Below the pieces are notes generated by a model that had not been told where the DNA came from, ran no database searches, and saw nothing but the letters and a program-made list of their open reading frames with translations. A program made the translations under genes and the position numbers. A stretch of 64,000 nt of DNA from Paludisphaera rhizosphaerae. GTDB taxonomy: Bacteria > Planctomycetota > Planctomycetia > Isosphaerales > Isosphaeraceae. The stretch lies in the NCBI RefSeq assembly GCF_011065895.1, contig NZ_JAALCR010000017.1, positions 62,001 to 126,000 on the forward strand, given 5' to 3'. Below are positions 9,982-32,830 of this stretch, in pieces. Every line of letters starts with the position of its first letter. The stretch's first letter is position 1.

Positions 9982-10108
9982 CCCGGTCTCCTCCGTGAGA
10001 AAAGCGGACGGCTTCTCGCCGACCGGACGGCCCAGAATACCGCCCTCGCCAAATCCGCCAAGGCGAAAATCTTTCAAGATCTTGCCTCGAACGGCCGAGG
10101 AGTCCCGT

Positions 10109-10417: not shown

Positions 10418-10423
10418 ACCCTC

Positions 10424-10978
10424 TCAGGCCGGCGTCAGGTCTCCGCCGCTCAACGATCGAATCAAGTCCGCGGCGGCCTCGTGATCGGGGACGTTCGGCA
10501 GCGGGTGGAAGACGTGCCGCGATCTGCCGGAGGGGCCGGCGGGCTCCTCGACGATCAGGGTCAGCGTCGCCAGTCCGTCGGCACGCAGGATCGGGCCCGA
10601 CCACGATTGCACGCCGGCCGTCCGCGCCAGGGGAATCACGTCGACGGGGCGGGCGCGGCCGTCGCGGCGGACCTCCACGCGGTCGGGGAAGATCAGGTAC
10701 GACGTCCGCTCGCGCTGAGCGATCAGCTTCCAGTAGTGGAATGACCAGAGCGCGAGGAAGGCGACGCCGAAGGTCGTTGCCGCCCATGCCAGCGCGAAGG
10801 GGAGGTTGGCGTCCCCCCGGCCGCCGTTGAGGGCGTCGGCCCCGAGCTTCAGCGCGATCAGCGCGAAGAATCCCAGGAAGAGGGCGAAGCCCAGGCTGTG
10901 GATCGCCCCGATCAGGCCGAACTCCCTCGTCAGCGGGACGGGCCGCACCACGCGCAGGGGCTTCTCGTCGTCGGTCAT
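10424..10978 (-). CDS. membrane protein with PH-like cytoplasmic domain
   Basis: This 184-residue protein has two hydrophobic segments, near 24-46 ([21 protein letters not shown]) and 60-82 ([18 protein letters not shown]). A C-terminal domain rich in beta strands follows ([35 protein letters not shown]), which fits the bacterial PH-domain membrane proteins of unknown function. Its ATG overlaps the stop of the GNAT gene by 4 bases (10975-10978), so the two are translationally coupled, downstream one being GNAT's neighbour in transcription order GH32, GNAT, this gene only in reverse of the overlap noted; all three share one strand. Confidence 0.6.
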
Positions 10979-11400
10979 GACGGGTCGGGCCTCGGGCCGG
11001 CAGGGATGACCCAGCAGGAATCGTGCGCAGTCATGCCGATGTGTGGATAATAGGTTCGGGCCTTGGGGGCGGCCAGCAGGATGAGCGTCGTCTGTCGGCC
11101 GGCCGCCTCGTGAGTCAGTCGAATCAACTCACGGCCGATCCCCCGGCCCTGGTAGGCGACGTCCACCGCCAGGTCTGACAGGTATGTGCAAAATTGTCGG
11201 TCCGTCAATGCCCGCGAGACGCCCACCAATCGGCCGTCGTCGCGAGCCGTCAGGATCACGTCCGCGTTCTCCAGCATGGCGAGGATCGCCTCCGGCCGGT
11301 CGACGGGCCGGCGCTCGGCGAGCGTGGAGCGGACGAGAACGTCGACGAACTCCTCGGGCGTGAAGCTCGGGTAGGTCTCCACCTGGTACGTCAGGGCCAT
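10975..11400 (-). CDS. GNAT-family N-acetyltransferase
   Basis: The 141-residue protein transfers an acetyl group from acetyl-CoA to an unidentified amine. It shows the GNAT core: a beta strand LVGVSRAL, then [20 protein letters not shown], where Q-G-R-G-I-G is the pyrophosphate-binding loop (motif A), and a C-terminal [14 protein letters not shown] (motif B). The ATG at 11400 shares its A with the TGA of the upstream GH32-like gene (TGATG), and its own end overlaps the next gene's start. These overlaps indicate one coupled operon 13607 to 10424. Confidence 0.88.
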
Positions 11401-17220: not shown

Positions 17221-18476
17221 GCGTGCGCCTCCGTCGTCAGGCGGTTCAGCAGCTCGTCCTCGGCAATCCGGAGCCAGCGCGCGAGGTGCGCCGGATCGTC
17301 GAAATCGATTTCGGCGTCGTCCTTCAACTCCAGCGCGACCTTGTTCGCCAGCTTGCGGACGTGCCCACCCAGCGTGGCCAGCGCCTCAGGGTCGGATCGA
17401 ACCACGTCGATGGATCGGAGCAGGTCGCCGACGACGTCCTTCCCCAGGCGGAGGCGGTTGCGGTCGAGCGGGTGGTCGGTCTCCAGCTTGATCTTCTCGA
17501 CCCAGAGGTCGTCGGCGACCTCGCCGGGAAGGGCGCGAAGCTGGGCGATGGTCTCAAGCCGTTTCGTCTCGTCGCTGAGCGTCCGGTGGGCGCGGCAGCG
17601 ACCCTTGAACTCCAGCCGGACGGCGGCGAGTCGGCCGTTGGAGTCCTCGGCCACCTGATGCAGCCGGACCCGCGCGGCGTCCACCAGTTCATCGACGCCG
17701 TCCTCGGGCGCGAGCGTGATCGCCTCGCGACGCCAGCGCAGGACGTCAGTCGATCGGAAGGCCACGGAGGCGACGGACCCGTCCTGGATCGTCGCGACCA
17801 TGCACCCCTTCGCTCCCGTCTCGCGGACGTGGCGGCCCTGGGTGTTGCCGGGATAGACGATGAACGGCCCCTCGTTGAGGATCTCGCGCTTGTGGATGTG
17901 GCCCAGGCCCCAGTAGTCGTAACCCTTGGCGGTCAACTCGCCCACGGAGCAGGGAGCGTAGCTGTCGTGGTCGAGCGAGCCGGTGGCGTTGGTGTGCAGC
18001 AGGCCGATGTTCACCAGGCCCTTGATCGGCTTCGGGTAGCGCGGGACCAGGTTCTCGGTCAGCTCGCGTTTGGGGAAGCTCATGCCATGGACGGCGACTC
18101 CCAGGTCCTCCAGGACGACGGTCTCCGGCTGCTTGCAGTCGAGCAGGTGGAGGTTCTCCGGCCAGGGGACGCGGTAGCTCATCTCGTCGCGCGAGTCGTG
18201 ATTGCCCCGGATGACGTAGACGCGAATCCCGTGCTTGTGAAGCACCCGCATCTGGGCGGCGGCGAACAGGGCCGTGTTGAAGTCGTTCCAGTCGCCGTCG
18301 AAGAGGTCGCCGGAGACGATCAGGAACTTCGCCTCTTCCTCGACGCAGACGCGGACGAGGTTCGCCAACGCGGCGCGAGTGGCGAGCCGAACGCGCTCGA
18401 CGGGGGCGCCCGCGTAGTGCTCCAGCCCGCGGAGAGGGCTGTCGACGTGGAGGTCGGCGGCGTGGACGAACTTCAT
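17217..18476 (-). CDS. SbcD/YhaO-type metallophosphoesterase nuclease
   Basis: The 419-residue protein is a calcineurin-like DNA nuclease. Metal-binding motifs appear in order: HAADLHVDSPL (D8 and H10), SGDLFDGDWN, IRGNHDSRDE, LLHTNATGS and GLGHIHKREI. A C-terminal helical region (from about residue 300) would contact the ATPase, as in SbcCD/Mre11-Rad50. The stop codon overlaps the ATPase start by 4 bases, so the subunits are made together. There is no recognisable promoter in the 164 bases upstream that I can defend. The pair fits DNA repair or processing of hairpin-containing ends. Confidence 0.92.
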   Translation of the reverse strand: MKFVHAADLHVDSPLRGLEHYAGAPVERVRLATRAALANLVRVCVEEEAKFLIVSGDLFDGDWNDFNTALFAAAQMRVLHKHGIRVYVIRGNHDSRDEMSYRVPWPENLHLLDCKQPETVVLEDLGVAVHGMSFPKRELTENLVPRYPKPIKGLVNIGLLHTNATGSLDHDSYAPCSVGELTAKGYDYWGLGHIHKREILNEGPFIVYPGNTQGRHVRETGAKGCMVATIQDGSVASVAFRSTDVLRWRREAITLAPEDGVDELVDAARVRLHQVAEDSNGRLAAVRLEFKGRCRAHRTLSDETKRLETIAQLRALPGEVADDLWVEKIKLETDHPLDRNRLRLGKDVVGDLLRSIDVVRSDPEALATLGGHVRKLANKVALELKDDAEIDFDDPAHLARWLRIAEDELLNRLTTEAHA

Positions 18477-18640
18477 GACGCGACGATCCCTCGATCCCTG
18501 ACAACCTATTCCGGGCGCGACGGAGCCGTGCCGCTCCTCGGCGGCCTCCTCAGTCGATATTGTACTTTTGTCCCCCGCGAGGGGAGGTCAATCGGCGCGG
18601 ATTTCGAGGCGTCGTCGTCGTTGCGACCGTTGCGAGCGGA

Positions 18641-19957
18641 TCAAGGGGCGGGGTCGCGAAGTGGTTCGTTTCGCTTGTAGAGGTCGAGCCGGGAGCGGGC
18701 TCGGGAGCGGGAATCGGGGTCGCGTAGAAGTTCCAGGGCCTTGGTCTGGTGGGCGACGGCGTCCTCGAACCGGCCGAGTTCGGCCTCGGCGGCGGCGAGG
18801 GCGGCGAGGGCGTGGGGCTCGACGTCCCTGGTCAGTTCCCGGGCGTGGTCGGCCAGGGTGCGGGCGCGGGCGCCGTCGCGGAGCTTGGCGTCAGGAGCGG
18901 CGGCCAGCAGCCGGGCTCGGTGCGTGGCGGCCACGGCATCGTCGGGGTCGACTCCCAGGGCGGCGTCGAGGTCGGCGGCGGCGGCGGCGTACCGCTCCTG
19001 GAACAGTCGGACGATGCCTCGGCCGGTGTGGGCCGAGGGGTAGCCGGGATCCTCCTGCAGAACCTCGTCGTAGTCGGCGGCGGCGGCGATGAGGTCCCCT
19101 TTCTGGGCGAGGGCGCGGGCGCGGCCGTAGCGGGCCTCGATGAGCCGGGGGTCGATCTCAAGGGCTCGACCGTAATCCTCGGCCGAGAGGGCGTACTCAT
19201 GCAGCTCGAACAGGCAGGTGGCCCGGCCGAGATGGGCCGAGGCGTCGTTCGGGGCCACATCCAGGGCCTTGTTGAAGTCGCCGAGCGCGTCCAGGTGGCG
19301 CCCTTGGTCGAAGGCGACGGCGGCGCGAGCGTCGTAGGCGTCGGCCAGACGGGGGTCGAGGCGGATGGCGCGGCTGAAGTCGTCGGTCGCCGCGGCGGAC
19401 TCGCCCCGGGCGCGGCGGAGGTCGCCTCGACTGAGGTAGAACAGGGCGCTGGAGGGGTCCAACGCCAGCGCCTGGTTGTAATCGGACAGGGCGGCGTCGT
19501 ACTCGCGACTTCTGGCTCGGGCCTGGGCGCGGGCGAAGTAGGCCAGTGAGTCCTTGGGGTCGGCGGCGACGGCGCGGTCGTAGTCGGCCAGGGCCTCGGT
19601 CGGCTCGCCTCGGACGGCGTGCAGGCGGCCCCGGCCGATGTAGGCGGCGGCCAGCTTGGGGTCGAGCGCCAGGGCCCGGTCGAAGTCGGCCAGCGCTCGC
19701 TCGCGGTCGGGGATTTCGGCCCAGGCGGAGGCGCGGTCGAAGTACGCCAGGGGGTCTTTGGGGTCCAGGCGGATCGCCTCGGTAAACGCCTGGACGGCCA
19801 GGGCGTATTCCTTGCGGACGTGCAGCGACACGCCCCGATTTCGTTCAGCGCGAGCCTTCGCCGCATCGTCCCCGGCCCGCGTCGGCGGCGCGAAGGCCGC
19901 CGCGGCGAGCAGGACGAACGACGGGAGGAGTCCTCGGGATCGGGGGCGCCTGGGCAT
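18641..19957 (-). CDS. exported tetratricopeptide-repeat protein
   Basis: This 438-residue protein has a signal peptide (RGLLPSFVLLAAAAFAPPTRA) and then about ten tandem 34-residue TPR units, starting near residue 35 (ERNRGVSLHVRKEYALAVQAFTEAIRLDP in two pieces). Each unit ends in a variant of A-L-x-L-D-P. TPR arrays are protein-binding scaffolds, so the partner is extracytoplasmic, but nothing in the neighbourhood identifies it. The repeats continue to about residue 395, where ELTRDVEPHALAALAAAEAE begins a less regular tail. It sits 32 bases downstream of galE on the same strand. Confidence 0.9.
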   Translation of the reverse strand: MPRRPRSRGLLPSFVLLAAAAFAPPTRAGDDAAKARAERNRGVSLHVRKEYALAVQAFTEAIRLDPKDPLAYFDRASAWAEIPDRERALADFDRALALDPKLAAAYIGRGRLHAVRGEPTEALADYDRAVAADPKDSLAYFARAQARARSREYDAALSDYNQALALDPSSALFYLSRGDLRRARGESAAATDDFSRAIRLDPRLADAYDARAAVAFDQGRHLDALGDFNKALDVAPNDASAHLGRATCLFELHEYALSAEDYGRALEIDPRLIEARYGRARALAQKGDLIAAAADYDEVLQEDPGYPSAHTGRGIVRLFQERYAAAAADLDAALGVDPDDAVAATHRARLLAAAPDAKLRDGARARTLADHARELTRDVEPHALAALAAAEAELGRFEDAVAHQTKALELLRDPDSRSRARSRLDLYKRNEPLRDPAP

Positions 19958-19989
19958 GGTCGACGTCCGTTTCGGGGTTCTCGATGGTG

Positions 19990-20973
19990 TCAGTCGCCGT
20001 AGCCGTTGGGGTGGCTTTCATGCCACTTCCAGGCTGATTCGACGATCGGGCGGATGCTGGTGAAGCGGGGGACCCAGCCCAATTCGCGGCGGGCCAGCGA
20101 GGCGTCGGCGATCAGCGCGGGGGGGTCGCCGGCTCGAGGAGGGGCGACGACGGCCGGGATCGGCCGGCCGGTGACCTCGCGGCAGGCGTCGATCACCTCC
20201 TTCACGCTGGTTCCGTGGCCGGTTCCCAGGTTGCAGCGGAACTCGGTTCCCGGCCCGAGCTTCTCAAGAGCCGAGATGTGCGCCGAGGCCAGGTCGTCGA
20301 CGTGGATATAGTCGCGAATGCAGGTGCCGTCGGGAGTGGGGAGCTTGTCGCCGAAGATCGTGATCTTCTCCCGTTGGCCGAGGGCCACCTGGAGGACCAG
20401 CGGGATCAGGTGCGTCTCGGGGTCGTGGTCCTCGCCGAGGTCGCCGTCGGCCGAGGCCCCCGCGGCGTTGAAATACCGCAACGCGGCGTAGCCCCAGCCG
20501 TACGCCTTGGCGTAGTCGGACAGCGCGCGCTCGATCACGAGCTTCGTGTAGCCGTACGGGTTGATGGGGTTCTGGGGCTGGGTTTCGCGGATCGGGACCT
20601 CCTGCGGCTCGCCGTAGGTTGCGCAGGTGCTGGAGAAGACGATCTTGGAGACGCCGGCCTCGCGCATGGCCTCCATCAGGCTGAGCGTGCCGACGATATT
20701 GTTACCATAGTACTTGGCCGGGTCGGTGACCGATTCTCCGACGTAAGCGAAGGCGGCGAAGTGCATGACCGCGTCGATCGACTTCTCGCGGAGGACGGCG
20801 ACGACCTTGTCCCTGTCCAGCAGGTCCCCCTCGATCAACCGCCCGGGGGCGACGGCCCCGCGATGGCCGAAGACCAGGTTGTCGTACACCCAGACTTCAT
20901 GGCCGGCCTTCGACAGCATCCGGGCCGCATGCGACCCGACGTAACCAGCCCCCCCCGACACGAGCACGTTCAT
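19990..20973 (-). CDS. galE: UDP-glucose 4-epimerase
   Basis: The 327-residue extended short-chain dehydrogenase interconverts UDP-glucose and UDP-galactose with bound NAD+. It begins MNVLVSGGAGYVGSHAARML, giving the Rossmann G-x-x-G-x-x-G at residues 7-13. The catalytic set is S-S-T in FSSTCATYGEP and Y140-x-x-x-K144 in PYGYTKLV. GalE-specific segments include LRYFNAAGA and GDKLPTPDGTCIRDYIHVDD. I start at the ATG at 20973 because the Rossmann strand begins there; an upstream ATG would add eight residues without any fold. Galactose units would feed cell-surface polysaccharides. Confidence 0.96.
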   Translation of the reverse strand: MNVLVSGGAGYVGSHAARMLSKAGHEVWVYDNLVFGHRGAVAPGRLIEGDLLDRDKVVAVLREKSIDAVMHFAAFAYVGESVTDPAKYYGNNIVGTLSLMEAMREAGVSKIVFSSTCATYGEPQEVPIRETQPQNPINPYGYTKLVIERALSDYAKAYGWGYAALRYFNAAGASADGDLGEDHDPETHLIPLVLQVALGQREKITIFGDKLPTPDGTCIRDYIHVDDLASAHISALEKLGPGTEFRCNLGTGHGTSVKEVIDACREVTGRPIPAVVAPPRAGDPPALIADASLARRELGWVPRFTSIRPIVESAWKWHESHPNGYGD

Positions 20974-21173: not shown

Positions 21174-22214
21174 TCAGGGGAGCGGGGGCGTCTTCGCGTC
21201 GTCGCGGACTTCGAGCGGTTCGGGGAGGCTTCTGACCTCGCCGATCGGACTATTGGAGTAGATCGCGAAGATCGTGGAGGGGACCACGAGGGGGACCGGA
21301 TTGATGGTCGTTCGCAGCCGCCACCCGTCGAAGGAGTTGGTCCCGGCGCCAGCCCGGGCCTGGCCGATCGAGAGGGGAGTCGTACTCCCCGGGACGTTGC
21401 CGAAGACCTGGATCCGCTGTTGCGAGCCCGCGGGGATCGGCGCTCTCCCCGTGAAGACTCCTCCCCGGATCTCGAAATCGATCGCCCCCCCTCCAATCCG
21501 AGCCTGAGCCCGTGTGACGCCGACTTGCGGATTGATGGTATCGACGAGGATTCCCGGAGACGGAGAGTCCGCCACGATCTTGAAGCCGATGAAGCGCTTG
21601 GCGCCCCCGACGACGCCGGGATAGCCGTCGATGCTGATCGGTGTGTCGACGGGAACATTCGCCAGATTCACTGGGATGCCGAACTCGTTCGTCGGTGTCC
21701 AGGGGATGAGCCGCGGGTCGTTCGAGTCGTTCGGAAGGGGGATGGCAGGGACGCCGTTGACGGTCAACACTCCGTTCGCAAAAGGCGCCGTCAGAGGCCC
21801 CAGCAGCAGGCTTTCGGGAGGTCCCACCTCCAGGAACGGATGGTATTCGAATGGGAGGCCGAGGGCCGGGTCGGGGATGCCGGTCGTCGGATAATCCACG
21901 ACGAGCGAGTTGACGTCCGGGTTCCCGGCCTGATCGGCGCCGTAGACGTAGTTGCCCACCACGATCGCGGTGGCGCCCTTGAAGCCGGCCTGACCGAGGC
22001 CGAAGAGAGAGGGCGGCAGCGGCGGCTGCCTCGTCGCCGTCAATTCCGCGAGCGACAGATTTCTCTGAAGGGTCGGCGTGCGGAGGCGTCCACTGGTCGC
22101 GGCCCGTGGCTTGACCACCACCTTGACCCCCAGAACGTGGAAGACCGCGTCCCCGTTCACGATTGTGGGGTCATCTTCGATCTCGCCTTCAAGTTGGGCC
22201 AGGATTATGGGCAT
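21174..22214 (-). CDS. protein of unknown function, last gene of the copper/heme operon
   Basis: I do not recognise this 346-residue protein. It starts MPIILAQLEGEIEDDPTIVN with no signal peptide, then FHVLGVKVVVKPRAATSG. The remainder is rich in Gly, Pro, Val and Ile with predicted short strands (GATAIVVGNYVYGADQAG, KRFIGFKIVADSP, QQRIQVFGNVPG, FDGWRLRTTINPVPLVVP). This suggests two or three OB-like or beta-barrel domains, possibly repeated. There are no cysteines and few histidines, so it is unlikely to bind heme or copper itself. It starts 52 bases after the stop of the di-heme protein gene and is on the same strand, which ties it to that operon. Confidence 0.7.
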   Translation of the reverse strand: MPIILAQLEGEIEDDPTIVNGDAVFHVLGVKVVVKPRAATSGRLRTPTLQRNLSLAELTATRQPPLPPSLFGLGQAGFKGATAIVVGNYVYGADQAGNPDVNSLVVDYPTTGIPDPALGLPFEYHPFLEVGPPESLLLGPLTAPFANGVLTVNGVPAIPLPNDSNDPRLIPWTPTNEFGIPVNLANVPVDTPISIDGYPGVVGGAKRFIGFKIVADSPSPGILVDTINPQVGVTRAQARIGGGAIDFEIRGGVFTGRAPIPAGSQQRIQVFGNVPGSTTPLSIGQARAGAGTNSFDGWRLRTTINPVPLVVPSTIFAIYSNSPIGEVRSLPEPLEVRDDAKTPPLP

Positions 22215-22266
22215 GCGACGTCTCCTCTGACGAACGGGCGGACGCGGAATTCCGGGGGGTGAGCGG

Positions 22267-25200
22267 TCAAGGCTGCGGCGGCGCGGACATCTCGGGCTCG
22301 GTGTGGTCGGGGAAGCCCTTCGGCGAGGACTCGGCGCCGCCGGCGCCGACGGCGTTCACGAGGATGATGCGCTCGCTGAACTGGTCGTCGTAGCCGTTGA
22401 CGACCCGGATTGAGGGATGGTCGAACGGGGCCTTCTCGTGCTCGACGCGGCAGTCGGTCAGGCACATCAGGAAGAAGACCAGGGCCAGCTTTTCTTCCTC
22501 GTCCATGTGCAGGCGGAGCATGGCCGGGGCGAGGTCGGGGTTGTGGACGGGGTCGGCGGGGACGTCGCCGCCGCAGTCGTAGAAGTCGACGACGTCGACC
22601 AACGACTGGAGCCGGCCGTTGTGCATGTAGGGGGCGGTCAGCGACACGTTGCGGAGCGTGGGGGTCTTGAACGATCCCCAGAAGGCCAGCTCGTTGTCGT
22701 GAAGGAGCGGCTTGCGACGACCCTCGGAAGACTCGTCCTGGACCATTGCGCGGGAGCGGGCGAAGAAGTGGACGTCGGCGCGACGGGCGTCGACCGAGTC
22801 AAAGGCTTCGCCTTCCGGTTGATTGGGTTCCTTGGGCGTGGCTGGCTTGAGCAACGGAGAGTTGTTCCAGTTCGGTAGATTGCGGTGCCACGAGAGATCC
22901 CGAGGGTTGGAGGCGCGGGAGTCGGCGTCGGCGTCGAGGGGGTTCTTCCAGGGCCCTTCGCCGATCCTTCGCGGCTGGTCGAGGAACATTTGGCTGGACC
23001 TCGACCGCCCTTTCCTCATCTGATAAGCAACCCCCGGGGCGCCTGCGGAGGAGTACTTGGGAGCCGGGCCGAAAGCGACTTGCGCCTTCGCATCGTCGGC
23101 CAGTTTTTGTTTAGACGAGTCGATCCGAGCCTCGGCCATCGTCCGGGTCATGGAGCGGACCTGATCCTGGAGCTTGGCGACCTTCTCCTGTGAATCCCTC
23201 TCATTGGGCTTGGTCATGGCCATGACGGCTTCTCGGGTCCGGCGGGGCGCGACGACGCCGAACCTGGAGCGACTCATGCGATCGAACGCCTCCAGTTCGC
23301 CCTCAACGATCCGCTCGAGTTCGGCCTGCGAAATCCCCGGGGCGCGATTTCGTTGGTCGGCGATGAGAGGCGGGAGTTTATCCAGGAGGTTCTGGAAGGC
23401 CTCGAGCAACTCATAAGGGTAGTTCGGCTCCGGCGCGTTCAGCTCAGTCCATTCGCCGCCGCCGCGGTCGTAGCGGGGGAGGCCGGCGCCGATGACGTAA
23501 TTGGAGACGTCGTAGAAGGCGTAGGATCCTCGGGCGAGCGGGCCGCTGATCGGCAGTCGGGGGCGGATCGCGGCAAGCGTCTGCGGGATGGGCATGAGCT
23601 CGACCATCACCGGGACGCCGATCAGGCCGGCCCGCGCCACGCGCTCGTCCTCGCGGAAGAAGTGACGGTTCCCGAGCCGTTCGACGAACGTCTTCTCGAA
23701 CGTCGTCCACTCCTTCGCGACCAGTTTCGCCAACTCCAGGCAATGGCCGGGCTCGTCGGTCGGGTGGGTCGTTTGGCGGGCGGTCCGGAACGGCTTGAGC
23801 AGGTCGTTGACGGACCGGGCCAGGGCCGCTTCGTCGCCGCCGTCGCGTTCGCAGACGTCGATGAAATCCAACAGTTCGCGATCCAGGAGCGGCTTGCCGC
23901 CGTCGGCGAGGGTGGAGCCGATCCGCTCGAGGACGCGCTCGCGGGCGCCGACGTACTTGAAGGCGAGAGCGTCGCCCCGCGAGTCGGGCAGGAGAGCGTT
24001 GGAGACCAGGCGGCCGATCGGGAGGGGCTTCAGGGGCTCATTCTCTCCTTGATCGCCGCGGAGATAGACCTCGCTGAACAGCGGGCCGTCGTGGCAGTCG
24101 ACGCATCCCCGCGACAGGAACGACCGCAGCCCGCGCTGAAAGACCTCGGGCCCAGAGTTAAACGCGAACCGCGGCGTGGCCGGCGGCGGCTTCGGGTTTG
24201 TCGTCGACGCGACGACGGGGGGCGTCTCTCCGGGGATGCAGTTCTCGGGTGAACGGGCGAGGCTGTGGACGCGGTCGATGTAGATGGGTTCCAGCTGGCT
24301 GCGCTTCTGCCGCCAGAGGTTTTCCACCTCATCGCCGGAGCCTCGGAGCATCCGGTCGTAGGGGGATTCGTTGGAGATCAACGTCGACTGGTAGAGCATC
24401 AGGCTCAGACCCCAGTAGAGCGAGAAGTCGGCCTGCATCAAGGTGCCGGTCACAGGCGTTTCGCCGGCGTCGTGGACGGCCAGCAACAGGGGGACCTTGA
24501 AAGCGGTCCTGGTCTCGGACGATGCGTCGATCTCGTCGCACCATTCGGGGCGGAAGGCTTCCTGGATGAGTTCGCGGTAGGTCTTCCCCAGCCCCGGCTT
24601 GTCCTTGGACCAACCAGCTCCGCGATGTCGACTGAAGACCGAATCGTCCTCCGAAACCATCTGGAAGCCGAGCACCTCGGCGTCGAGGAGCTTGTACGCG
24701 AGGTCGTGGAACGTCCGGCCGACGTACGACATTTCCACGTCGTTGACGATCGGGCCCACCGCCTGCGACGCCAGCGCGGCGCGAGGGATGGCGATCCTCG
24801 ACTTCATGGGCGCCTGGAGTCGGCCCTGGGCGTCGACCCTGCGGACGTAGAGGACTTCGCTCTCGTCGAAGTCGCCGAAGATCGAGAAGCCGTTGAAGGT
24901 GGACTCGGCGCGGGAGTCGTGGAAGAGGCGGTCCGCGAACGTCGCATTCATGACGCTGGGCGCGTTGCGGGTGGTGATCTGCCGGAAGGCGCGCGACTGG
25001 CCGGGCCTCTTGTCGACGAACATCGACCATTGAGGGGGACGCCGGAATCCATGGGGAGAGCGAAGGACGGATTCCTCCCGCCACCAGGTTCCTTCGGGTG
25101 ACTTCTCCTCGACAAGCCTCGTAAAGACGCGGGGCTCAACCCCCTGGGAACCGACGATCAGCGACAGCGGCGTCTTGCGGCGGTCCTCGTCGCAGTCCTC

Positions 25201-25995
25201 CGCTTCGTCTTCCTCGTCGTCGGCGTCGAGGCCCGGAGGGCGGCGGCGGACGTGGGGAGGGAAGCCGCGAGGTACGGGATTCTTGAGGTCGCTGGGGTGG
25301 TCGATGCGCAGGGTCGCCACGCCGGCGGCGTCCTCGGGGGCAGGCGGCGGGGCGGGGGCGTCCGTCAACCGGCGCGACTCCTGGTTGGCCCGGATCATCT
25401 TCGCGAGGCCGTCGACGGGCTGTTGCTTCTCGCCGAAGCCGAGATCCTTGTGGTCCTTGTCGAGACAGTATTCCTTCCAGCCGACGTAGGGGATGCGGGC
25501 GGTGTTCGTATCGCGGGGGTCGGCGCCGAACCGGTAGTGGCACGAGGCGCAGGCGGTGCCGACGAACTTCCCGTCGCCGATCCGGCGGAAATCGCTGCCG
25601 GCCTGCATCTCCCAGAAGAACGCCTTGCCCAGCGCGACGGCGGCGTCGGCGTCCTTGATGAACTGGGCCAGATCCGGGCGCTTGACGACCCACTTCGTCG
25701 GCCGGCTCTTGTCGTCGCGCTGGACGGCCTCGACGTAGGGGCTGACGAGCTTTCGCGGGTCGAAGTCGTCGATCAACTCCTGGATGCGTCGCAGCAGTTC
25801 CGCCTCCTCATGGCCGACGAGGTGGCCGCCAGTGGGGGCCGATTCGCGGGCGCCGGCCCTGGGCTGGGGCGACGGCGTGGTTTTGCTACTCGACGCCGGC
25901 TGTTCAGACGGCGTCTGGGCCGGGACCCGGGCGACGGCGAGGGCGGCGATTGCAGCGAGGGCCAGGCCCGCCGCGGCGCGGCTGCGAAGGTTCAT
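22267..25995 (-). CDS. very large di-heme cytochrome c peroxidase/MauG-like protein
   Basis: The 1,242-residue exported protein has a signal peptide (RAAAGLALAAIAALAVARV) and two c-type heme attachment sites: C149-A-S-C-H153 and C631-V-D-C-H635. Peroxidase-family features are MNATFADRLFHDSRAESTF in the middle and FKTPTLRNVSLTAPYMHNG near the C terminus. That last segment contains the T-P-x-L-R-N and M-H-x-G motifs of the di-heme peroxidase/MauG superfamily. Standard members have 330-480 residues, so about 800 residues are extra, including an acidic insert (DADDEEDEAEDCDEDRRK). A peroxide-reducing or protein-oxidising role in the periplasm is inferred. It lies 55 bases downstream of the SCO-like gene. 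Confidence 0.88.
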   Translation of the reverse strand: MNLRSRAAAGLALAAIAALAVARVPAQTPSEQPASSSKTTPSPQPRAGARESAPTGGHLVGHEEAELLRRIQELIDDFDPRKLVSPYVEAVQRDDKSRPTKWVVKRPDLAQFIKDADAAVALGKAFFWEMQAGSDFRRIGDGKFVGTACASCHYRFGADPRDTNTARIPYVGWKEYCLDKDHKDLGFGEKQQPVDGLAKMIRANQESRRLTDAPAPPPAPEDAAGVATLRIDHPSDLKNPVPRGFPPHVRRRPPGLDADDEEDEAEDCDEDRRKTPLSLIVGSQGVEPRVFTRLVEEKSPEGTWWREESVLRSPHGFRRPPQWSMFVDKRPGQSRAFRQITTRNAPSVMNATFADRLFHDSRAESTFNGFSIFGDFDESEVLYVRRVDAQGRLQAPMKSRIAIPRAALASQAVGPIVNDVEMSYVGRTFHDLAYKLLDAEVLGFQMVSEDDSVFSRHRGAGWSKDKPGLGKTYRELIQEAFRPEWCDEIDASSETRTAFKVPLLLAVHDAGETPVTGTLMQADFSLYWGLSLMLYQSTLISNESPYDRMLRGSGDEVENLWRQKRSQLEPIYIDRVHSLARSPENCIPGETPPVVASTTNPKPPPATPRFAFNSGPEVFQRGLRSFLSRGCVDCHDGPLFSEVYLRGDQGENEPLKPLPIGRLVSNALLPDSRGDALAFKYVGARERVLERIGSTLADGGKPLLDRELLDFIDVCERDGGDEAALARSVNDLLKPFRTARQTTHPTDEPGHCLELAKLVAKEWTTFEKTFVERLGNRHFFREDERVARAGLIGVPVMVELMPIPQTLAAIRPRLPISGPLARGSYAFYDVSNYVIGAGLPRYDRGGGEWTELNAPEPNYPYELLEAFQNLLDKLPPLIADQRNRAPGISQAELERIVEGELEAFDRMSRSRFGVVAPRRTREAVMAMTKPNERDSQEKVAKLQDQVRSMTRTMAEARIDSSKQKLADDAKAQVAFGPAPKYSSAGAPGVAYQMRKGRSRSSQMFLDQPRRIGEGPWKNPLDADADSRASNPRDLSWHRNLPNWNNSPLLKPATPKEPNQPEGEAFDSVDARRADVHFFARSRAMVQDESSEGRRKPLLHDNELAFWGSFKTPTLRNVSLTAPYMHNGRLQSLVDVVDFYDCGGDVPADPVHNPDLAPAMLRLHMDEEEKLALVFFLMCLTDCRVEHEKAPFDHPSIRVVNGYDDQFSERIILVNAVGAGGAESSPKGFPDHTEPEMSAPPQP

Positions 25996-26050
25996 GGTCG
26001 GTCGGCTCCGGCCGGAGGATGCGGTCGAGATGACATGAAGGATGGGGAGG

Positions 26051-26671
26051 TCAGCCCGGGATTCCGTATTTCTGCTCGAAGGTGAAGCCCGCCACGCGAC
26101 GGATCGCTTCGATCAGCAGCGGTTCGCGCTGCTCGGCGGGCATCGCCGCCCAGCGGTCGCTCGTCGAATTGCCGAAGAGCAAGGTGGAGGCGTGCCTCGT
26201 CGGATCGGCGTCGACCGCCGGGTCGAGGTCGTAGAAGTCCAGGCTGCGGCGCAGGCGGTCCACGTCGGCCGGCTCGCCGGTGACGAACCGCCAGTCGCAG
26301 AGGCCGGACTGATGGCGGTCGGCGCCGTAGATCGAGGCGAACATCCGCAGCGACCGGGGGTCGTCGCGCTCGGGGTCGATCGAGAGCGAGACGATGGTCA
26401 GCCGATCGCCGAAGACCGGCGAGAGCTTCTCGCGCAAACCCTTGAGCGTCTGGCTCGTTCCCGGGCAGGTCCCCCGGCAGACGGTGTACATCGTGTTGAC
26501 GATCAGAGCCCGGCCGTCGACGAACGCCTCGCGGAACCGCAGGCGGCGGCCGAACTGGTCGACCAGCGGGACGTCCGCGAAGCGATCGCAGCGCCGGGGG
26601 GGACGCGGGAGGGGATCGGGACTGGGATCGTCGCCCAGCGTCGTCAGCAGGTTCCAGAGCCATCCGGCCAT
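26051..26671 (-). CDS. SCO1/SenC-family copper chaperone-like protein
   Basis: The 206-residue thioredoxin-fold protein has the copper-binding C65-x-x-x-C69 (in MYTVCRGTCPGT) and the distal ligand H160 (in RHASTLLFGN), the three residues that bind copper in SCO proteins. VPLVDQFGRRLRFREAF and VSLSIDPERDDP complete the family pattern. SCO proteins deliver copper or adjust thiols for cytochrome oxidase, but here the gene lies between a multicopper oxidase (37 bases away) and the di-heme protein, with no cox genes nearby. A clear signal peptide is not visible: the N terminus MAGWLWNLLTTLG is short and only weakly hydrophobic. Confidence 0.88.
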   Translation of the reverse strand: MAGWLWNLLTTLGDDPSPDPLPRPPRRCDRFADVPLVDQFGRRLRFREAFVDGRALIVNTMYTVCRGTCPGTSQTLKGLREKLSPVFGDRLTIVSLSIDPERDDPRSLRMFASIYGADRHQSGLCDWRFVTGEPADVDRLRRSLDFYDLDPAVDADPTRHASTLLFGNSTSDRWAAMPAEQREPLLIEAIRRVAGFTFEQKYGIPG

Positions 26672-26708
26672 CGGAGCGTTCCTCTTGAGGTGGGGCGTGT
26701 GGGCCGGT

Positions 26709-29300
26709 TCAACCCTTGGACTCAGGTTTGGGAGCGGCGGCCTTGGTCTCGGCGTCGCGTCTCTTGCGGTCGTGGATCAGGTCGTCGACGTCGCGGGCCG
26801 GTGTGCCGGGGACCGGCGGATACTCCCAGGGAGGCTCGCCCACGCGGAGGTGGTCGGGGTCGGGCTGGTGCGTCAGGTCGTCGCCGTGGGTGCGAGAGTC
26901 GGGAGCGACGTTCGCCCTGAGACGGTGGTCGAGTTCGCGGTCCGCGGCGGTCAGGTCGCCGTGGATCGGGTCCGCGTAGTCGCGGTCGACGGGCTCGAAG
27001 TTAAACATCATCCGCATGTCTTCGTGGTCCACGTTATGGCAGTGGAAGACGAAGGGGCCGTTCCAGGTGCGGAACCGCATGCGGATCCGGGCGATCGTAT
27101 TGGGGCCGAGGACCTGGGTGTCGTGCAGGCCGATCTGGTCCCCCGCGTCCATCATCTCCAGGATGTCGACGAGGTTGCCGAGCCGAGGGATGTTGGGCGG
27201 GTCGCGGAGGTCGACCACGTCGTCGGCGGCGAAGTCCTTCTGGTAGCTGACGAGTTGGTGGCTTTCCAGGTGGATGTGGATCGGGTGCCACCAGCCGCCG
27301 CCCCCGTTGCGGAGGACCCACTCCTCGACCGAGTTGCTGGAGGGAGTGGCGTTGGCGATCGTCGGGTCGTAGAACCGGCCGTTGATCCGCCAGGCGCCCT
27401 TGCCGCGTTCGAAGATGAACTGGCGGACCACCTGGACTTCCTCGTCCTTGATCGGCTCGTGAGGGTTCAGGCAGGTGCCGTGCTTGATGGAGGCGTCTTC
27501 CTTCTCATCGAGCGGGGCGCCCCGGACGATGATCTTCATGAGCGCGACGGGCCGGTTCGACTCGGCGAGCTTCCCGGGGCGGACGAGCGGATTGGCGCCG
27601 GGGGCGACGTCGAACGGGACCGGAAGCACGCGGGGATCGCCGGGGTCGTCGAGCTTCACCCGGGGGCCGCGGCCGTCGGTCTGGGCCATCGTGTTGACCA
27701 GATAGAAGACCGCCTCGTCGTCCTTCCCGAGATTCAGGTCCTTCGTGAGTTCCTTGAAGTCGACCACCAGGTCGGCCCGGTTGGCCATCGGCAGCAGGAG
27801 GCTCGTGGCGGTCCGCGCCTTGGGCCAGAGCCACGAATCCTTGCCGATCCGGAGGAACGGCTTGGCGACGCTCTCGAAGTCGCCGCCGCCAGCCGCGGCG
27901 GCCGCGCATTCGGCGTCCGCGGCTTCAGCCGGCGCGGGGTCGTCGCCCCGGCGGAGGGCGTCGTAGTCGGCCTCGGAGAGGAACCGCAGGCGGTAGATCC
28001 GGGCGTTCGAGCCGTTGAGGAACCGGAATCGGTACTTGCGGTTCTCCACGCAGAGTTTGGGCCAGGGCGTGCCGTTGAGCAGGAACGTGTCGCCGAGGTA
28101 GCCGTTGTGGGCGTTCGTGTCGAAGGCGATCTGCCCCGTGTTGTAGTCGATCACCTTGTCCTGGATGACGATGGGGATGTCGTACGGATTGTGGTAGGGC
28201 TCCTTGCCGCGCAGGTAGAAGCCGGGGCGTTTGGGGTCTTCCAGGTCGGCCACTTCCTTCGGGTCGGTCTTCAGGCCGTACAACTCGGGGTCCTGGCATG
28301 ACTTCTCGCGCTCGCCGGGAAGGACGCCGGAGGCGATGAGTTCCAGCTCACGCTCGCTGAAGACCATGACGAAGCCGGCCAGACCCTTGGAGACGTTGTA
28401 CGCGGTGCAGTCCATGCCGTGGTCGTGGTACCAGCAGGTCGACTGCGCCTCGGCGACGTCGGGGATGTAGCCGCCGCTGTTCGAGGAAAGGACGGCGTCG
28501 CCGGGCTTCGGTTCGGTCTCGGGCTTCTCCTTGTCGCGTTCGATCATCGGGGCGATGTTGGGATAGAAGTAATCCCGCGACTTCCCCTGAAGGACGTAGA
28601 ACGTGGGGAAGCCGTCGCTGTGCGAGGGGTTGTGGCCGCCGTGGAAGTGGATGGAAGTCTCCGTCTCCAGGTGGTTGTGGAACCGGACGACCGTCGGCTG
28701 GCCGATCCGCATCCGAAGCGTCGGCCCCGGAACCATCCCCGCGTAGGTGTAGAAGAGAGTGGGAAATGGTAGAGGGTCGATGGGAACCCGGGCCTCCTGG
28801 ATCGGGATCTTGAAGCACTTGACCGGGAAGCCGCCCCAGTTGTCGACGTCTTGCCGCGGATTCCCGTCCTTGTCGACGAGATGCCGATGGCCGATGATCT
28901 TGCCGAAGTGATCTCGCTTGTCGTACCACGCCTTGACGTGGTCCTGCTCGTTCGGGTTGCAGTCGTAGAGCTTCCAGAACGGAGGGGTCATGGCCCACTC
29001 GCGGGCGACCCCGTGGAAGCAGTCGCCGATCGGGAAGGCGTCGGTCGGGCCGAAGGCGGGAACCTTCGGCGAAGGGCCTTCCAGGTCCTCGCGAGCGGCG
29101 ACCGCCGTGGGGCGGGGCGTGGGGGGGATCTGCAAGGGCGTGCGGAAGGCCCAGTTCGGCGGCTCGTCCGCCTTGGCCTTGTCGAACCGGACGGTCGGGT
29201 CGTCGAACGGCCCCGGAGGATCCTGCGCCCCGGCGTTGGAGGCGGACGCGCCGGCGGCAGCCGCGGCGGCCGCCCGGATCAGGTCGCGACGGTTCAGCAT
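26709..29300 (-). CDS. multicopper oxidase, Tat-type export signal
   Basis: The 863-residue enzyme couples one-electron substrate oxidations to reduction of oxygen to water. The N terminus (MLNRRDLIRAAAAAAAGAS) has a twin-arginine-like R-R-D-L-I, fitting export of a folded protein. All four copper-site segments are present: H218-F-H220 (HFHGGH), H292-D-H294 in CWYHDHG, H672-P-I-H-I-H677, and H753-C754-H755 followed by NVDHEDM. C754 would bind type 1 copper. Length exceeds a usual three-domain laccase (about 500), because of N-terminal and interdomain insertions. It is the first gene of the four-gene unit. The substrate could be a metal ion or an organic molecule; the sequence does not say. 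Confidence 0.94.
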   Translation of the reverse strand: MLNRRDLIRAAAAAAAGASASNAGAQDPPGPFDDPTVRFDKAKADEPPNWAFRTPLQIPPTPRPTAVAAREDLEGPSPKVPAFGPTDAFPIGDCFHGVAREWAMTPPFWKLYDCNPNEQDHVKAWYDKRDHFGKIIGHRHLVDKDGNPRQDVDNWGGFPVKCFKIPIQEARVPIDPLPFPTLFYTYAGMVPGPTLRMRIGQPTVVRFHNHLETETSIHFHGGHNPSHSDGFPTFYVLQGKSRDYFYPNIAPMIERDKEKPETEPKPGDAVLSSNSGGYIPDVAEAQSTCWYHDHGMDCTAYNVSKGLAGFVMVFSERELELIASGVLPGEREKSCQDPELYGLKTDPKEVADLEDPKRPGFYLRGKEPYHNPYDIPIVIQDKVIDYNTGQIAFDTNAHNGYLGDTFLLNGTPWPKLCVENRKYRFRFLNGSNARIYRLRFLSEADYDALRRGDDPAPAEAADAECAAAAAGGGDFESVAKPFLRIGKDSWLWPKARTATSLLLPMANRADLVVDFKELTKDLNLGKDDEAVFYLVNTMAQTDGRGPRVKLDDPGDPRVLPVPFDVAPGANPLVRPGKLAESNRPVALMKIIVRGAPLDEKEDASIKHGTCLNPHEPIKDEEVQVVRQFIFERGKGAWRINGRFYDPTIANATPSSNSVEEWVLRNGGGGWWHPIHIHLESHQLVSYQKDFAADDVVDLRDPPNIPRLGNLVDILEMMDAGDQIGLHDTQVLGPNTIARIRMRFRTWNGPFVFHCHNVDHEDMRMMFNFEPVDRDYADPIHGDLTAADRELDHRLRANVAPDSRTHGDDLTHQPDPDHLRVGEPPWEYPPVPGTPARDVDDLIHDRKRRDAETKAAAPKPESKG

Positions 29301-29640: not shown

Positions 29641-30795
29641 TTAAGCCCCCGCCTTCTTCGGCGCGTCGGCCGGGCGGAGGGCCGGGGGAGGGCCGGCGGG
29701 AGGGGCCGGCTTGGCGATCGCGATGCTCAGGCCGATCTCGTTGGCGGCGTCGTAGGCGAGCACGGCGCTTCGGTGGCGGGTGGTGAAGTCGGCCGAGAGC
29801 AGCATGGCCTTGCGGTCGGTCTTGTCGCGGGCCTCGCGCAGTCGCTGGACGAGGGCTTCCACCTGGGCGGGGACCGGCTCCTGGTCGATCTTCACGTTCC
29901 CCTCGGCGTCGATCTCCACCAGGATGTAGTCGTTCTTCAGGTCGTCGAGCGTTCGGTTGCGGGCCTGGGCGACGGCCTCCGGCGGAGCCTCGGCGGAGGG
30001 CTTGGGGATCTCCAGGGTCTTGTAGAGGACCGTCGTGGCCGTGACCAGGAAGAAGAGGACGAGCTGGAACGCCACGTCCACCATCGCCGCCAGGTCCAGT
30101 TCCTCGACCTTCTGCGGGCCGGCTCGACGAAGCGAGACCAGGCCCTCGTCTTCCTCATCCTCGTCGCCCTGGCGTTCGTCGTAGTCTCGCGAGCGAGCCG
30201 TGGGGAGCGCGACCCGGCTGCTCGACGATCCGGTCGAGGTCAGCCGGTCGGGATGCAGGTCGTCCGGGCCCAGGTCGGCCTCGGAGACGGGGACGGGCTC
30301 GGGGATGATAGAGGCGGTCGCTTGCCGGGGGACCGGTTCGTAGGCGATGTCCTCCTCGTCCTCGTCCTCCTCGTAGCCTTCTTCCAGATCCTCGGCGAGT
30401 TCCTCCTCGTCGTCCCACTCCCAGTCGGCGGGCGGGGGAGCGTCGTCGCGGACGACCGGGAACGAGAGGTCGCCGCTCTCGACGGGCTCTGGCCGATCCT
30501 CGACGGGTGGGACGCGGCGAGCCGGCTCCACCGGAGGTTCGGGCTCAGGCTCGGGTTCGGGCTCGACCTCGTAGACGTCCTTGGTCGGTGCGGCCGGTGG
30601 GGGAGGGGCGGCGGCGGGCGGGGCCGCCAGTTCGGGGACGTCGGCGACGCGAGCCCACGCGACGGACGTGCCCGAGGGGCGCACCAGGTCGTCCTCGCGG
30701 ATGGAGCCCGCGGCCAGGCCGGCGCGGATCTCCTCGGCGGTCAGGCCGCGGGCGAGCTCCAGGCGGTCGGAGTAGAAGACGTCCCAGGACGGCAT
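29641..30795 (-). CDS. ExbD/TolR-like protein with N-terminal GYF-like domain
   Basis: This 384-residue protein has an unusual architecture. Residues 1-55 (MPSWDVFYSDRLELARGL, then TAEEIRAGLAAGSIREDDLV) match the GYF_2-type W-x-x-x-F ... G-x-I-x-x-D-D-L-V pattern. A Pro/Glu-rich acidic linker of about 170 residues follows (EVEPEPEPEPEPP, EEGYEEDEDEED). Then comes the ExbD core: a single membrane helix preceded by the conserved Asp (ELDLAAMVDVAFQLVLFF) and a small periplasmic domain (VEIDAEGNVKIDQEPV). In ExbB-ExbD/TolQ-TolR complexes that Asp carries protons. The ATG at 30795 begins the GYF-like strand. It follows the second exbD gene by 52 bases. Confidence 0.85.
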   Translation of the reverse strand: MPSWDVFYSDRLELARGLTAEEIRAGLAAGSIREDDLVRPSGTSVAWARVADVPELAAPPAAAPPPPAAPTKDVYEVEPEPEPEPEPPVEPARRVPPVEDRPEPVESGDLSFPVVRDDAPPPADWEWDDEEELAEDLEEGYEEDEDEEDIAYEPVPRQATASIIPEPVPVSEADLGPDDLHPDRLTSTGSSSSRVALPTARSRDYDERQGDEDEEDEGLVSLRRAGPQKVEELDLAAMVDVAFQLVLFFLVTATTVLYKTLEIPKPSAEAPPEAVAQARNRTLDDLKNDYILVEIDAEGNVKIDQEPVPAQVEALVQRLREARDKTDRKAMLLSADFTTRHRSAVLAYDAANEIGLSIAIAKPAPPAGPPPALRPADAPKKAGA

Positions 30796-30847
30796 AGGGT
30801 CAACCAATCAGGATGCGATTTCGTGTTCATGACGGCCGGCGTTCGCG

Positions 30848-31285
30848 CTAAGGCGTCGCGCTCGCTTCCTGGACGCCGACGTGAACGGTGACCCCTTCGA
30901 CCTGGCTGACCGCCGCGGCGACCTCCAGGACCTTGCCGTGGGGGACGTCGCCGTCGGCCTGAAGGACGACCTTGCGGACCCCCTTGCGGACGGCGTCGTC
31001 GACGGCCTTGCGGGCCTGATCGAGCGTCGCGACCGGGCCCTCGCCGTGGCCGAGGAGCAGGTCGGAGTCGCCGCCGGGGACCTTCGGCTTGGCCAGGGTC
31101 AGGAAGGTCGCCGCCGATTCCTCCACGCCCACTCCGTGCCGCGCGGGGGGGACGTCCACCTTCTCGCCGCCGGTCATCTGGGTGGAGAAGAGCATGAACG
31201 TCATGAGCTGGAAGACGACGTCGACCATCGGCGTCATGTCGATGTGTTCGTCGCGTTCCTCGGTCTCGTCGCGTCGCAGCAGCAT
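30848..31285 (-). CDS. exbD: ExbD/TolR-family biopolymer transport protein
   Basis: The 145-residue protein has the normal ExbD layout: a short cytoplasmic N terminus (RRDETEERDEHIDMTPM), one transmembrane helix with the proton-carrying Asp (MVDVVFQLMTFMLFSTQM) and a periplasmic alpha/beta domain (KVVLQADGDVPHGKVLEVAAA). With the ExbB-like protein encoded just upstream it would form the proton-driven motor that energises outer-membrane transport or stability. The gene begins 41 bases after exbB stops. No TonB gene is present in the window. Confidence 0.9.
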   Translation of the reverse strand: MLLRRDETEERDEHIDMTPMVDVVFQLMTFMLFSTQMTGGEKVDVPPARHGVGVEESAATFLTLAKPKVPGGDSDLLLGHGEGPVATLDQARKAVDDAVRKGVRKVVLQADGDVPHGKVLEVAAAVSQVEGVTVHVGVQEASATP

Positions 31286-31326
31286 GGTCGGAACCTGTCG
31301 CCGGGGGAGGGGACTTCAGGAACGCC

Positions 31327-32013
31327 TCAGCGCGAGGCTGCCGGCCGGGCGGGTCTCTCGGCGGCCGGGGAGGCGGCCTTGCCGGGTTCGGTCGTCTCCA
31401 TCACGTCGAGCACGTCCTGGAGCTGCCGCTCGGTCCGGTCGCGGAGGCGTCGGAGCCGGGCGTGGAAGTCGTTGCCGATCAGCATCATCGGGTTGGCGAT
31501 CAGCAGGCCGGCCCCGGTGGCCCAGAGCGCCAGGCTGATGTCGGAGGCCAAGGCGTTGGGACTGACCTTCTCCGAGCTGCCGATCCGGCCGAACGCCCCG
31601 ATCATCGACGCGACGGTCCCCAGCAGTCCGAGCAACGGGCCCATCCGGACGATCGTCGAGACCGACCCCAGCCGATTCTCCATCTCGGCGACGACCTCGG
31701 TGTGGAACTCGCTGACCAAGAGCTGCTTGATCTTGGCCAGCCCTTTGTCACGATTCTTGAGGGCGACCGCCATCAACTGCGCGAGCGCCGTGTGCCAGTA
31801 GGCGGGGCTCTGGCAGACGTTCATCGCGGCGTCGTACTTGCCGGCCCTGCAAAGCTCCTGGACCTGCGTCACCAGGGTCTCGGGGTCGCGGATCGTCTTC
31901 TTGCGGAGCGTTCGGTAGAGGAGGATCGCGTTGTACGCCCCCCAAACGGCCAGGAACGCCAGGGCGGCGTAAATGATGTAGCCGGACGCGTCGATGATCC
32001 GCGTGACGTTCAT
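31327..32013 (-). CDS. exbB: MotA/TolQ/ExbB-family proton channel protein
   Basis: The 228-residue inner-membrane protein has three hydrophobic segments: near 12-30 (YIIYAALAFLAVWGAY), 120-150 (VSTIVRMGPLLGLLGTVASM, IGAFG) and 165-190 (SDISLALWATGAGLLIANPM). The G-P-L-L-G-L-L-G-T-V core is the family signature. A cytoplasmic domain lies between helices 1 and 2. The ATG at 32013 is chosen because GGAG lies 8 bases upstream and the first helix follows directly. It heads the ExbB-ExbD-ExbD-like set. Confidence 0.9.
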   Translation of the reverse strand: MNVTRIIDASGYIIYAALAFLAVWGAYNAILLYRTLRKKTIRDPETLVTQVQELCRAGKYDAAMNVCQSPAYWHTALAQLMAVALKNRDKGLAKIKQLLVSEFHTEVVAEMENRLGSVSTIVRMGPLLGLLGTVASMIGAFGRIGSSEKVSPNALASDISLALWATGAGLLIANPMMLIGNDFHARLRRLRDRTERQLQDVLDVMETTEPGKAASPAAERPARPAASR

Positions 32014-32830
32014 GCCGGTCGCTCCGCCTCTCCCGATCCCACTGCCGCGACCCGTTTTCCGAGCCGAGCCCGCCCCGACCCTCGAGACGCCCCGACTATT
32101 CTCACCGAATTCCTCCATGCTCGGCAAGCGACCCGCGACGGTTGTCGATCGGCGGCCTCCTCGGCGGGTTCAATTGGGTCCGTTTGCAGCCGTCGATTGT
32201 GTTGTGGACAGCGTGGAAATTGTTGACTGAAAAGGCTTTGCGGTTGATGCGGGCTTGGCTTCGATTGGCTCGTTCTCAATCCTTCTCGACGCGGTTTCTC
32301 CTCAAACGAGGGTATCTCAACTTCCATGCCCGCCACGATCGGCGGACCAAGTTCGGCCTCCGAACCTCTTCGATCCGACGAATTGAGAAAGAGCCGGGCG
32401 GACTCTGTCCTTAACTTCAGTATGGGCTCCGATGGTCGATTTCGGCGAAGTACAGGGGATTTCTAGGGAGTTGCACACGACCCGTGTTCAGACCTCCCTT
32501 CTCCAACAAGGCAGAGGCGTGACAACAACGCGTCGACTTGAAATTTTGGAAGGCTGGGAACCAAATCCTTGGGACGAGCGAGCTTGCCCAGGTCCCCTCT
32601 CCCCTCGCGAGAGGGTGGCCCGAAGGGCCGGGTGAGGGTCGTCGGACCTGTAGGCATGGCCTGGATTGATTGTTTGACGGAACCGTCACGCCCTCCGAAA
32701 TCCCACGACCCTCACCCGCCGCTGCGCGGCTGCCCTCTCCCGGGGGGAGAGGGGATAAAAGGGGAGCTGACGCCTTCAATCGAATCGGCGGTCTGGACGG
32801 CTCGCCCGGGCACCGTGGATGGCGACTCGA
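32014..32830. other. 817-base intergenic region between uvrB and exbB
   Basis: No gene can be supported here. Positions 32200-32540 are less G+C-rich than coding DNA and may carry the exbB promoter; short open frames on both strands have no coding character. The part closest to uvrB (32593-32755) holds the inverted repeat pair listed separately. Confidence 0.5.
32593..32755. repeat. inverted pair of REP/MITE-like elements
   Basis: A left element near 32593-32642 (cccctctcccctcgcgagag, then ggtggcccgaagggccgggt, then gagggtcgt) is repeated in inverse orientation at 32704-32755. The outer ends both read cccctctcccc and the inner ends gggtgagggtcgt, while the centres differ but keep internal symmetry (gcccgaagggc in one, gccgctgcgcggc in the other). 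Each arm can fold on itself. The roughly 60 bases between them contain tgacggaaccgtca. Such elements are usually multicopy; only one pair is seen here. Confidence 0.6.

Follow-up and report, generated by a model that had tools for sequence, protein, structure and literature searches.

Introduction

Why would a planctomycete keep a multicopper oxidase, a copper chaperone, a di-heme protein of more than a thousand residues and a protein without a recognised domain side by side? The question is raised by a locus of Paludisphaera rhizosphaerae, located in a stretch of 64,000 nucleotides of contig NZ_JAALCR010000017.1 (hereafter, the window). Here, four genes follow one another on the minus strand with gaps of 37, 55 and 52 bases: a long multicopper oxidase (MCO), an SCO1/SenC-type protein (SCO), a di-heme protein of the MauG/cytochrome c peroxidase family (DIH) and an all-beta protein (G4). 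A sequence-only reading had described these as a single gene unit; re-examination of the list of open reading frames (ORFs) returned the same four frames, strand and gaps, and the unit itself is borne out by conserved neighbourhoods and by co-occurrence in 45 genomes. Since related sets are found in two phyla of bacteria, MCO, SCO and DIH, often accompanied by G4, probably form a real working module, as far as sequence comparison can tell. With moderate confidence, we propose that this is a dedicated oxidase-and-maturation module, in which the MCO is served by its own copper loader and by a MauG-type protein-oxidising maturase.

Results

Conservation of the gene set in the host's family

The distribution of the genes was followed across 45 genomes from the family of the host, its own (G000) among them. 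A long DIH is present in five of them (G000, G011, G029, G037 and G039), the remaining DIH matches being short and confined to the C-terminal heme region, with the exception of a broken second copy in G029. MCO lies near the long DIH in all five genomes (the window MCO served as the query, and the host's own copy is that query), and a profile built from these five proteins found no MCO at E 1e-30 in the other 40. Used as the sole query, the window G4 detected G000, G011 and G037, while a profile including four family members detected the same three plus G029, with no match in the other 41; the co-occurrence of G4, set as a test beforehand, was in this way found in four of the five genomes carrying MCO, SCO and DIH (the trio). 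The corresponding probabilities (p = 8e-7 for MCO with the long DIH and p = 3e-5 for G4) assume independent genomes, which they are not. The order MCO-SCO-DIH-G4, which the sequence-only reading had suggested seeking in other planctomycetes, is kept in four of the five genomes with a long DIH (G000, G037, G011 and G029, with L012, L013 and L014 as the relatives' loci). In the fifth, G039 (L015), G4 was not found by the profile, and transposase fragments lie directly after DIH (L015 6581-8923).

MCO and a long DIH are absent from four further members of the host genus, and the MCO of G029 is 50-54% identical to the window protein vs 58-63% for the copies of three other genera. Hence, the distribution is patchy, apparently by loss, transfer or both. 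Recent transfer was also judged by composition, which gave no signal (GC 0.671 in the cluster vs 0.668 in the window). G029 additionally holds a broken second copy of the module (L016; G029:C1:298000-316000), with MCO split over two frames and interrupted by an internal stop, an SCO, and a DIH of which just residues 51-225 were found; its main pieces are 60% (MCO) and 66% (SCO) identical to the window proteins, vs 50-54% and 55% for the intact copies of the same genome.

Distribution beyond the family

A scan of a species-genome collection with the DIH alignment yielded 71 loci, nine of which carry MCO, SCO and DIH according to profiles (L017, L018, L019, L020, L021, L023, L028, L030 and L057). 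G4 is also present on the same strand in L017 (Singulisphaera acidiphila DSM 18658, NC_019892.1, with the same four genes), L030 and L057, and lies divergently beside MCO in L021; in L028, SCO and MCO are on the strand opposite to DIH, with a secretin gene in between. Among the 21 genomes behind the loci, G4 occurs in five (G436, G438, G439, G441 and G443), all with trio loci; the 16 without it comprise three with the trio (G435, G437 and G440), four with DIH and a distant MCO, two with DIH and an SCO match, and seven with DIH only. In 392 genomes sampled evenly across the phylum, MCO (at E 1e-60) and G4 were each found in the host's own genome only, and a DIH-family match (at E 1e-20) in 42, all but the host's being partial; scoring in these large samples was limited to the top 2 or 6 candidates of each genome. 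A first contig scan with G4 alone gave 42 stretches and no relative.

The second phylum is represented by the Verrucomicrobiaceae, the family of G443 (L057), where the G4 profile matches 9 of 68 genomes. MCO and SCO lie near G4 in five of these nine, one of which (G443) was known beforehand; DIH is present in four, and the contig ends in the fifth. G443 has two sets, one of them arranged in a row as DIH-MCO-SCO-small ORF-G4 (L132), and G495, G514 and G508 possess all four genes, the nearer G4 of G514 (L148 9730-10584) being overlapped by a longer antisense ORF. G496 carries MCO-MCO-SCO-G4 at a contig start. The short contig of G506 begins in an ORF that resembles the end of SCO by eye and was not flagged by the SCO profile; in G511, G470 and a second copy in G495, a G4 paralogue close to a contig end is all that is seen, and G467 has G4 alone.

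Over all the stretches examined, G4 accompanies 11 of 17 trio sets. G4 also occurs apart from the trio in L149, as well as on the stretches L129, L130, L150, L151 and L152, several of which end at contig ends; L129 (G439:C40) bears two tandem G4-like genes (9968-11050 and 11413-12399, minus strand) and no MCO, SCO or DIH.

Some further proteins were seen near these genes. In L057, two ORFs on the plus strand (17804-18601 and 19561-20637) match PEP-CTERM models below the cut-off. A protein of L131 (8478-10439, minus strand), encoded beside G4 or its paralogue, has a signal-like N-terminus and no Pfam match, and contains numerous repeats of a DVRQGRGADDAVTATP-like motif; similar proteins occur in L147, L148, L150, L152 and L154, all from Verrucomicrobiaceae. 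The protein has the appearance of a repetitive substrate or precursor located close to an enzyme of the MauG type.

Conservation and distances were assessed on 13 loci with starts set by hand, a set that leaves out the partial MCO of L018, the broken L016, L022, L028 and the later loci L146-L154. The pairwise distances of MCO, SCO and DIH correlate, with r from 0.81 to 0.95 (12-13 loci).

The multicopper oxidase and its putative copper loader

MCO matches Cu-oxidase_3 and Cu-oxidase_2 above the Pfam cut-offs and is nearest to bilirubin oxidase and CotA, bilirubin oxidase being its best match in the Protein Data Bank (PDB). The four copper motifs of a three-domain multicopper oxidase, with ten histidines and one cysteine, are all present; the ligands H218, H220, H292, H294, H672, H675, H677, H753, C754, H755 and H759, as well as the axial M764, are invariant in the 12 homologues aligned. 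The N-terminus is of the Tat type by eye (NRRDLIR), and an RR motif lies close to the N-terminus in 12 of 12 MCOs; the protein had indeed been described as a Tat-type multicopper oxidase. It remains far below the curated NCBIfam cut-offs for PhsA (117.5 vs 950 bits) and CopA (34.2 vs 478.95 bits), as it does for CueO (119.4 vs 525 bits).

SCO matches Pfam PF02630 (SCO1-SenC) with 50.2 bits against a cut-off of 22.8, as well as solved SCO structures, and the three copper ligands attributed to it earlier (C65, C69 and H160) are invariant in all 13 aligned homologues. The host genome contains five SCO1/SenC loci and three COX1 loci (on C1, C5 and C26). One SCO paralogue (C1:574103) lies approximately 3.9 kb from COX1 at C1:568773-570218, and another (C26:54298-54705) approximately 1.4 kb from COX1 at C26:56085. 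On the window's own contig (C17), the search, which covered COX1 and neither COX2 nor COX3, found no COX1; to this extent, the earlier remark that no cytochrome oxidase is near holds. Because two of the three COX1 loci have an SCO of their own nearby, the window SCO is probably dedicated to MCO and not to a cytochrome oxidase, in agreement with the suggestion that it loads the MCO; a role for it in a respiratory oxidase is less likely, though it might still serve the third COX1.

The di-heme protein

The middle part of DIH matches the Pfam family CCP_MauG, and its last 150 residues match MbnH-family and MauG models. The NCBIfam MbnH-family model is its best match, yet with 64.8 bits vs a cut-off of 362.85; the best PDB match is 6e1c, listed as a di-heme enzyme, which we take to be MbnH. 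Clear likeness to MauG is confined to the C-terminal heme part. With 1242 residues vs 373 in the solved MauG chains, DIH has long insertions, and nine other planctomycete copies are at least 887 residues long (this comparison leaves aside L028, which is smaller, and L023, whose start was set by hand). Its N-terminus is of the Sec type by eye. A structure model of DIH reached a pLDDT of 46.3, too poor for use.

MauG-type di-heme enzymes oxidise a protein side chain via a bis-Fe(IV) state. All 13 aligned DIH proteins retain the two CXXCH motifs and Tyr1139 without variation, and the tyrosine (numbered Y1090 there) is likewise invariant across the 14 rows of alignment A6, which adds L022 and L028 to the 13 loci and omits L132. 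Tyr1139 aligns with residue 294 of the MauG chains (position counted by hand). According to the available text of PMC7567364, Tyr294 is conserved in MauGs, its place being taken by methionine or histidine in cytochrome c peroxidases. Since the second-heme ligand position is a tyrosine, DIH is better read as a putative MauG-type enzyme on the protein-oxidising branch than as a peroxidase with methionine. The 1,242 residues and the di-heme character given in the earlier description hold, the CXXCH motifs lying at residues 149 and 631; its label 'peroxidase-like' is the part to be altered.

Plasmid records matching DIH number 48, none of them across more than 80% of the protein. Plasmid carriage of the set found no support in their annotations, which were read without a profile scan: two fetched neighbourhoods consist mostly of hypothetical proteins, with no MCO or SCO named, and a third is unannotated.

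The fourth gene

The window G4, reported earlier as unrecognised, indeed matches no Pfam or NCBIfam model, but two of seven homologues show matches to DUF5666 (PF18914) below its cut-off of 27 (22.9 bits in L030 and 15.6 in L057). An AlphaFold model based on seven sequences (pLDDT 73.9) is mostly beta. For its C-terminal part (residues 228-336), the best immunoglobulin (Ig)-like match has Z 7.5 and rmsd 3.2 over 90 aligned residues, a middling value; the best Foldseek rows, with low TM scores, are likewise immunoglobulin-type domains over this part, and Foldseek listed nothing for the N-terminal part, which may still have a known fold. G4 thus appears to combine a DUF5666-like N-terminal part with a putative Ig-like C-terminal domain. 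No Cys, His or Met, the start Met aside, is common to at least six of eight homologues; hence, G4 is unlikely to carry copper. It could be either an accessory binding or scaffold protein or a target of DIH.

Signal peptides and predicted location

The unit had been called extracytoplasmic, a description that fits MCO and DIH, which look exported, but is not supported for SCO and G4. By eye and hydropathy, these two lack a clear N-terminal signal stretch in the window, in the family relatives and in L021 (the SCO of G011 being the least clear case), and the codons upstream of the window SCO and G4 offer no signal peptide either. Signal-like N-termini are found on both proteins in L030, L057 and L132, and on the SCO of L028. 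Hydropathy alone cannot separate such cases, because the values of Tat-type MCO starts (0.66-1.29) overlap that of the G011 SCO (0.90). In G4, peaks of hydropathy at residue 17 and beyond are read as a strand common to signal-bearing homologues, and the start of the window G4 coincides with the expected cleavage point of the L030 protein (alignment A5, by eye).

In the window's clade, SCO and G4 either became cytoplasmic or exit together with MCO. It is conceivable, if unlikely, that SCO and G4, which seem to have lost their signal whereas MCO keeps a twin-arginine one, assemble on MCO in the cytoplasm, load copper there and leave folded as Tat passengers, MCO being completed outside by the Sec-exported DIH; were this so, a multicopper oxidase would be exported as a pre-loaded complex.

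Locus layout and neighbouring genes

The positions of the genes and of their metal-binding residues are collected in Table 1. Promoter-like sites (one vs a mean of 0.4 in shuffled sequences) and terminator-like sites (two overlapping, directly past G4, vs a mean of 6.3) were not significantly enriched. An ExbB-like and two ExbD-like genes (29641-32127) lie on the same strand, 340 bases upstream of MCO.

Table 1. Genes of the locus and their metal-site features, in window coordinates.
Feature	Position	Strand	Basis
MCO, long multicopper oxidase, 863 aa	26709..29300	(-)	ORF list and Pfam
MCO HCHNVDHEDMRM motif, residues 753-764	27009..27044	(-)	homologue alignment
SCO, SCO1/SenC-type copper chaperone, 206 aa	26051..26671	(-)	ORF list and Pfam
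SCO CXXXC copper motif, C65-C69	26465..26479	(-)	homologue alignment
SCO third ligand, H160	26192-26194	(-)	homologue alignment
DIH, di-heme MauG/CCP-family protein, 1242 aa	22267..25995	(-)	ORF list and Pfam
DIH first heme motif CASCH, residues 149-153	25537..25551	(-)	homologue alignment
DIH second heme motif CVDCH, residues 631-635	24091..24105	(-)	homologue alignment
DIH Tyr1139, aligned with MauG Tyr294 (heme 2 ligand)	22579..22581	(-)	alignment with MauG
G4, 346-aa all-beta protein	21174..22214	(-)	ORF list and predicted structure

Discussion

In the module that we propose, MCO would be the working enzyme, an exported protein of the laccase/bilirubin oxidase type that reduces O2 while oxidising a substrate. 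SCO would load copper into MCO or redox-prepare it, and DIH, as a di-heme oxidant of the MauG/MbnH type, would modify a protein side chain, most likely on MCO or G4, a modification that would mature the complex. G4 would act as an accessory all-beta binding or scaffold protein beside most, not all, copies of the trio, and the genes are presumably transcribed together.

Several observations weigh against this proposal. The full trio is not seen at 62 of the 71 DIH-family loci: an SCO match is present in L022, L024, L026 and L034, a weaker MCO match in L052, L073, L081 and L082, and neither in 54. Given this, DIH-like enzymes would seem to work without the trio as well; a number of the loci are short, so the absence of MCO or SCO at some of them is not firm. 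DIH misses the NCBIfam equivalog for MauG in tryptophan tryptophylquinone (TTQ) biosynthesis, TIGR03791 (47.1 vs 443.85 bits). The correlated distances of MCO, SCO and DIH may reflect shared descent only, and no SCO lies less than 200 kb away from the third COX1 (C5:99709-101043). SCO1/SenC proteins are usually exported or membrane-anchored, and an SCO without a signal peptide fits poorly with copper loading outside the cytoplasm. As for G4, it is missing from the stretches of six of the 17 trio sets (L015, L018, L019, L020, L023 and L028; the stretches of L019 and L023 stop within 1.5 kb of DIH), and its distances bear no clear relation to the trio distances (r from -0.004 to 0.229, 8 loci), its identities being so low that saturation is possible. 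These absences, the occurrence of G4 without the trio and its unlinked distances weaken the idea of a strict four-gene unit.

An alternative, in line with the periplasmic oxidation system of the sequence-only reading, makes DIH a second catalyst instead of a maturase, with MCO and DIH acting consecutively or side by side on the same small or polymeric substrate (phenols, metal ions or polymers). We consider this possible, though not probable. Both enzymes look exported, four of the ten plasmid relatives of DIH listed are annotated as cytochrome c peroxidase, and the long insertions by which DIH exceeds MauG could form a substrate site; the invariant MauG-type tyrosine, however, speaks against it, as does the retention of SCO with the MCO-DIH pair, which is also seen in the mtoX operon as far as the available text describes it.

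It is rather improbable that the locus is a copper homeostasis or tolerance operon, in which MCO would oxidise Cu(I) in the manner of CueO while copper is handled by SCO and G4. An HMA-domain protein is encoded in the Verrucomicrobiaceae set (L057 17465-17782, plus strand), MCO does match the CueO model, though far under its cut-off, and CorB-type MauG-like proteins occur beside copper-binding proteins in methanotrophs (PMC3912023, available text). However, the lack of shared Cys, His or Met residues in G4 makes a copper carrier unlikely, and 40 of the 45 family genomes dispense with the set. That unrelated neighbours share one strand by chance is practically negligible: short gaps on one strand are common in bacteria and the promoter and terminator scans gave no clear excess, but the same neighbourhood in two phyla and the co-occurrence across 45 genomes lead us to reject it.

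Comparison with known systems

If the oxidase-and-maturation reading is true, a protein-derived modification has gone unrecognised in some laccase-like enzymes, and their expression without the partner genes would yield an incomplete enzyme. To our knowledge, no heme-dependent protein modification is considered necessary for multicopper oxidases. MCO has all four copper motifs in common with CotA, bilirubin oxidase and CueO and differs from them in its length of 863 residues, with N- and C-terminal extensions. DIH shares with MauG a pair of CXXCH hemes and a tyrosine at the ligand position, and differs from it in size, clear similarity being found only in the C-terminal heme part. Among the matches listed in titles and abstract openings of the open-licence literature, no set of MCO, SCO and a MauG-like protein is described, consistent with the earlier view that the combination had not been described.

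MbnH and CorB likewise place a MauG-like di-heme protein beside a copper protein, as the available text on the CorA/CorB pair of methanotrophs indicates (PMC3912023); their partner is a protein of the CorA/MbnP type, whereas the partners of DIH are MCO and SCO. The closest precedent found is the mtoX-SCO1/senC-mauG operon-like unit, for which the available text of PMC5739008 proposes that SCO and MauG mature a copper enzyme. The two sets agree in joining a copper enzyme with an SCO1/SenC protein and a di-heme protein of the MauG type; in the mtoX unit, as far as that text goes, the copper enzyme is an SBP56 methanethiol oxidase, whereas the window encodes a three-domain multicopper oxidase, a DIH of approximately three times the length of MauG and, in addition, G4. 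The set may carry the combination of copper enzyme, SCO and MauG-type oxidant beyond methanethiol oxidase to the multicopper oxidases.

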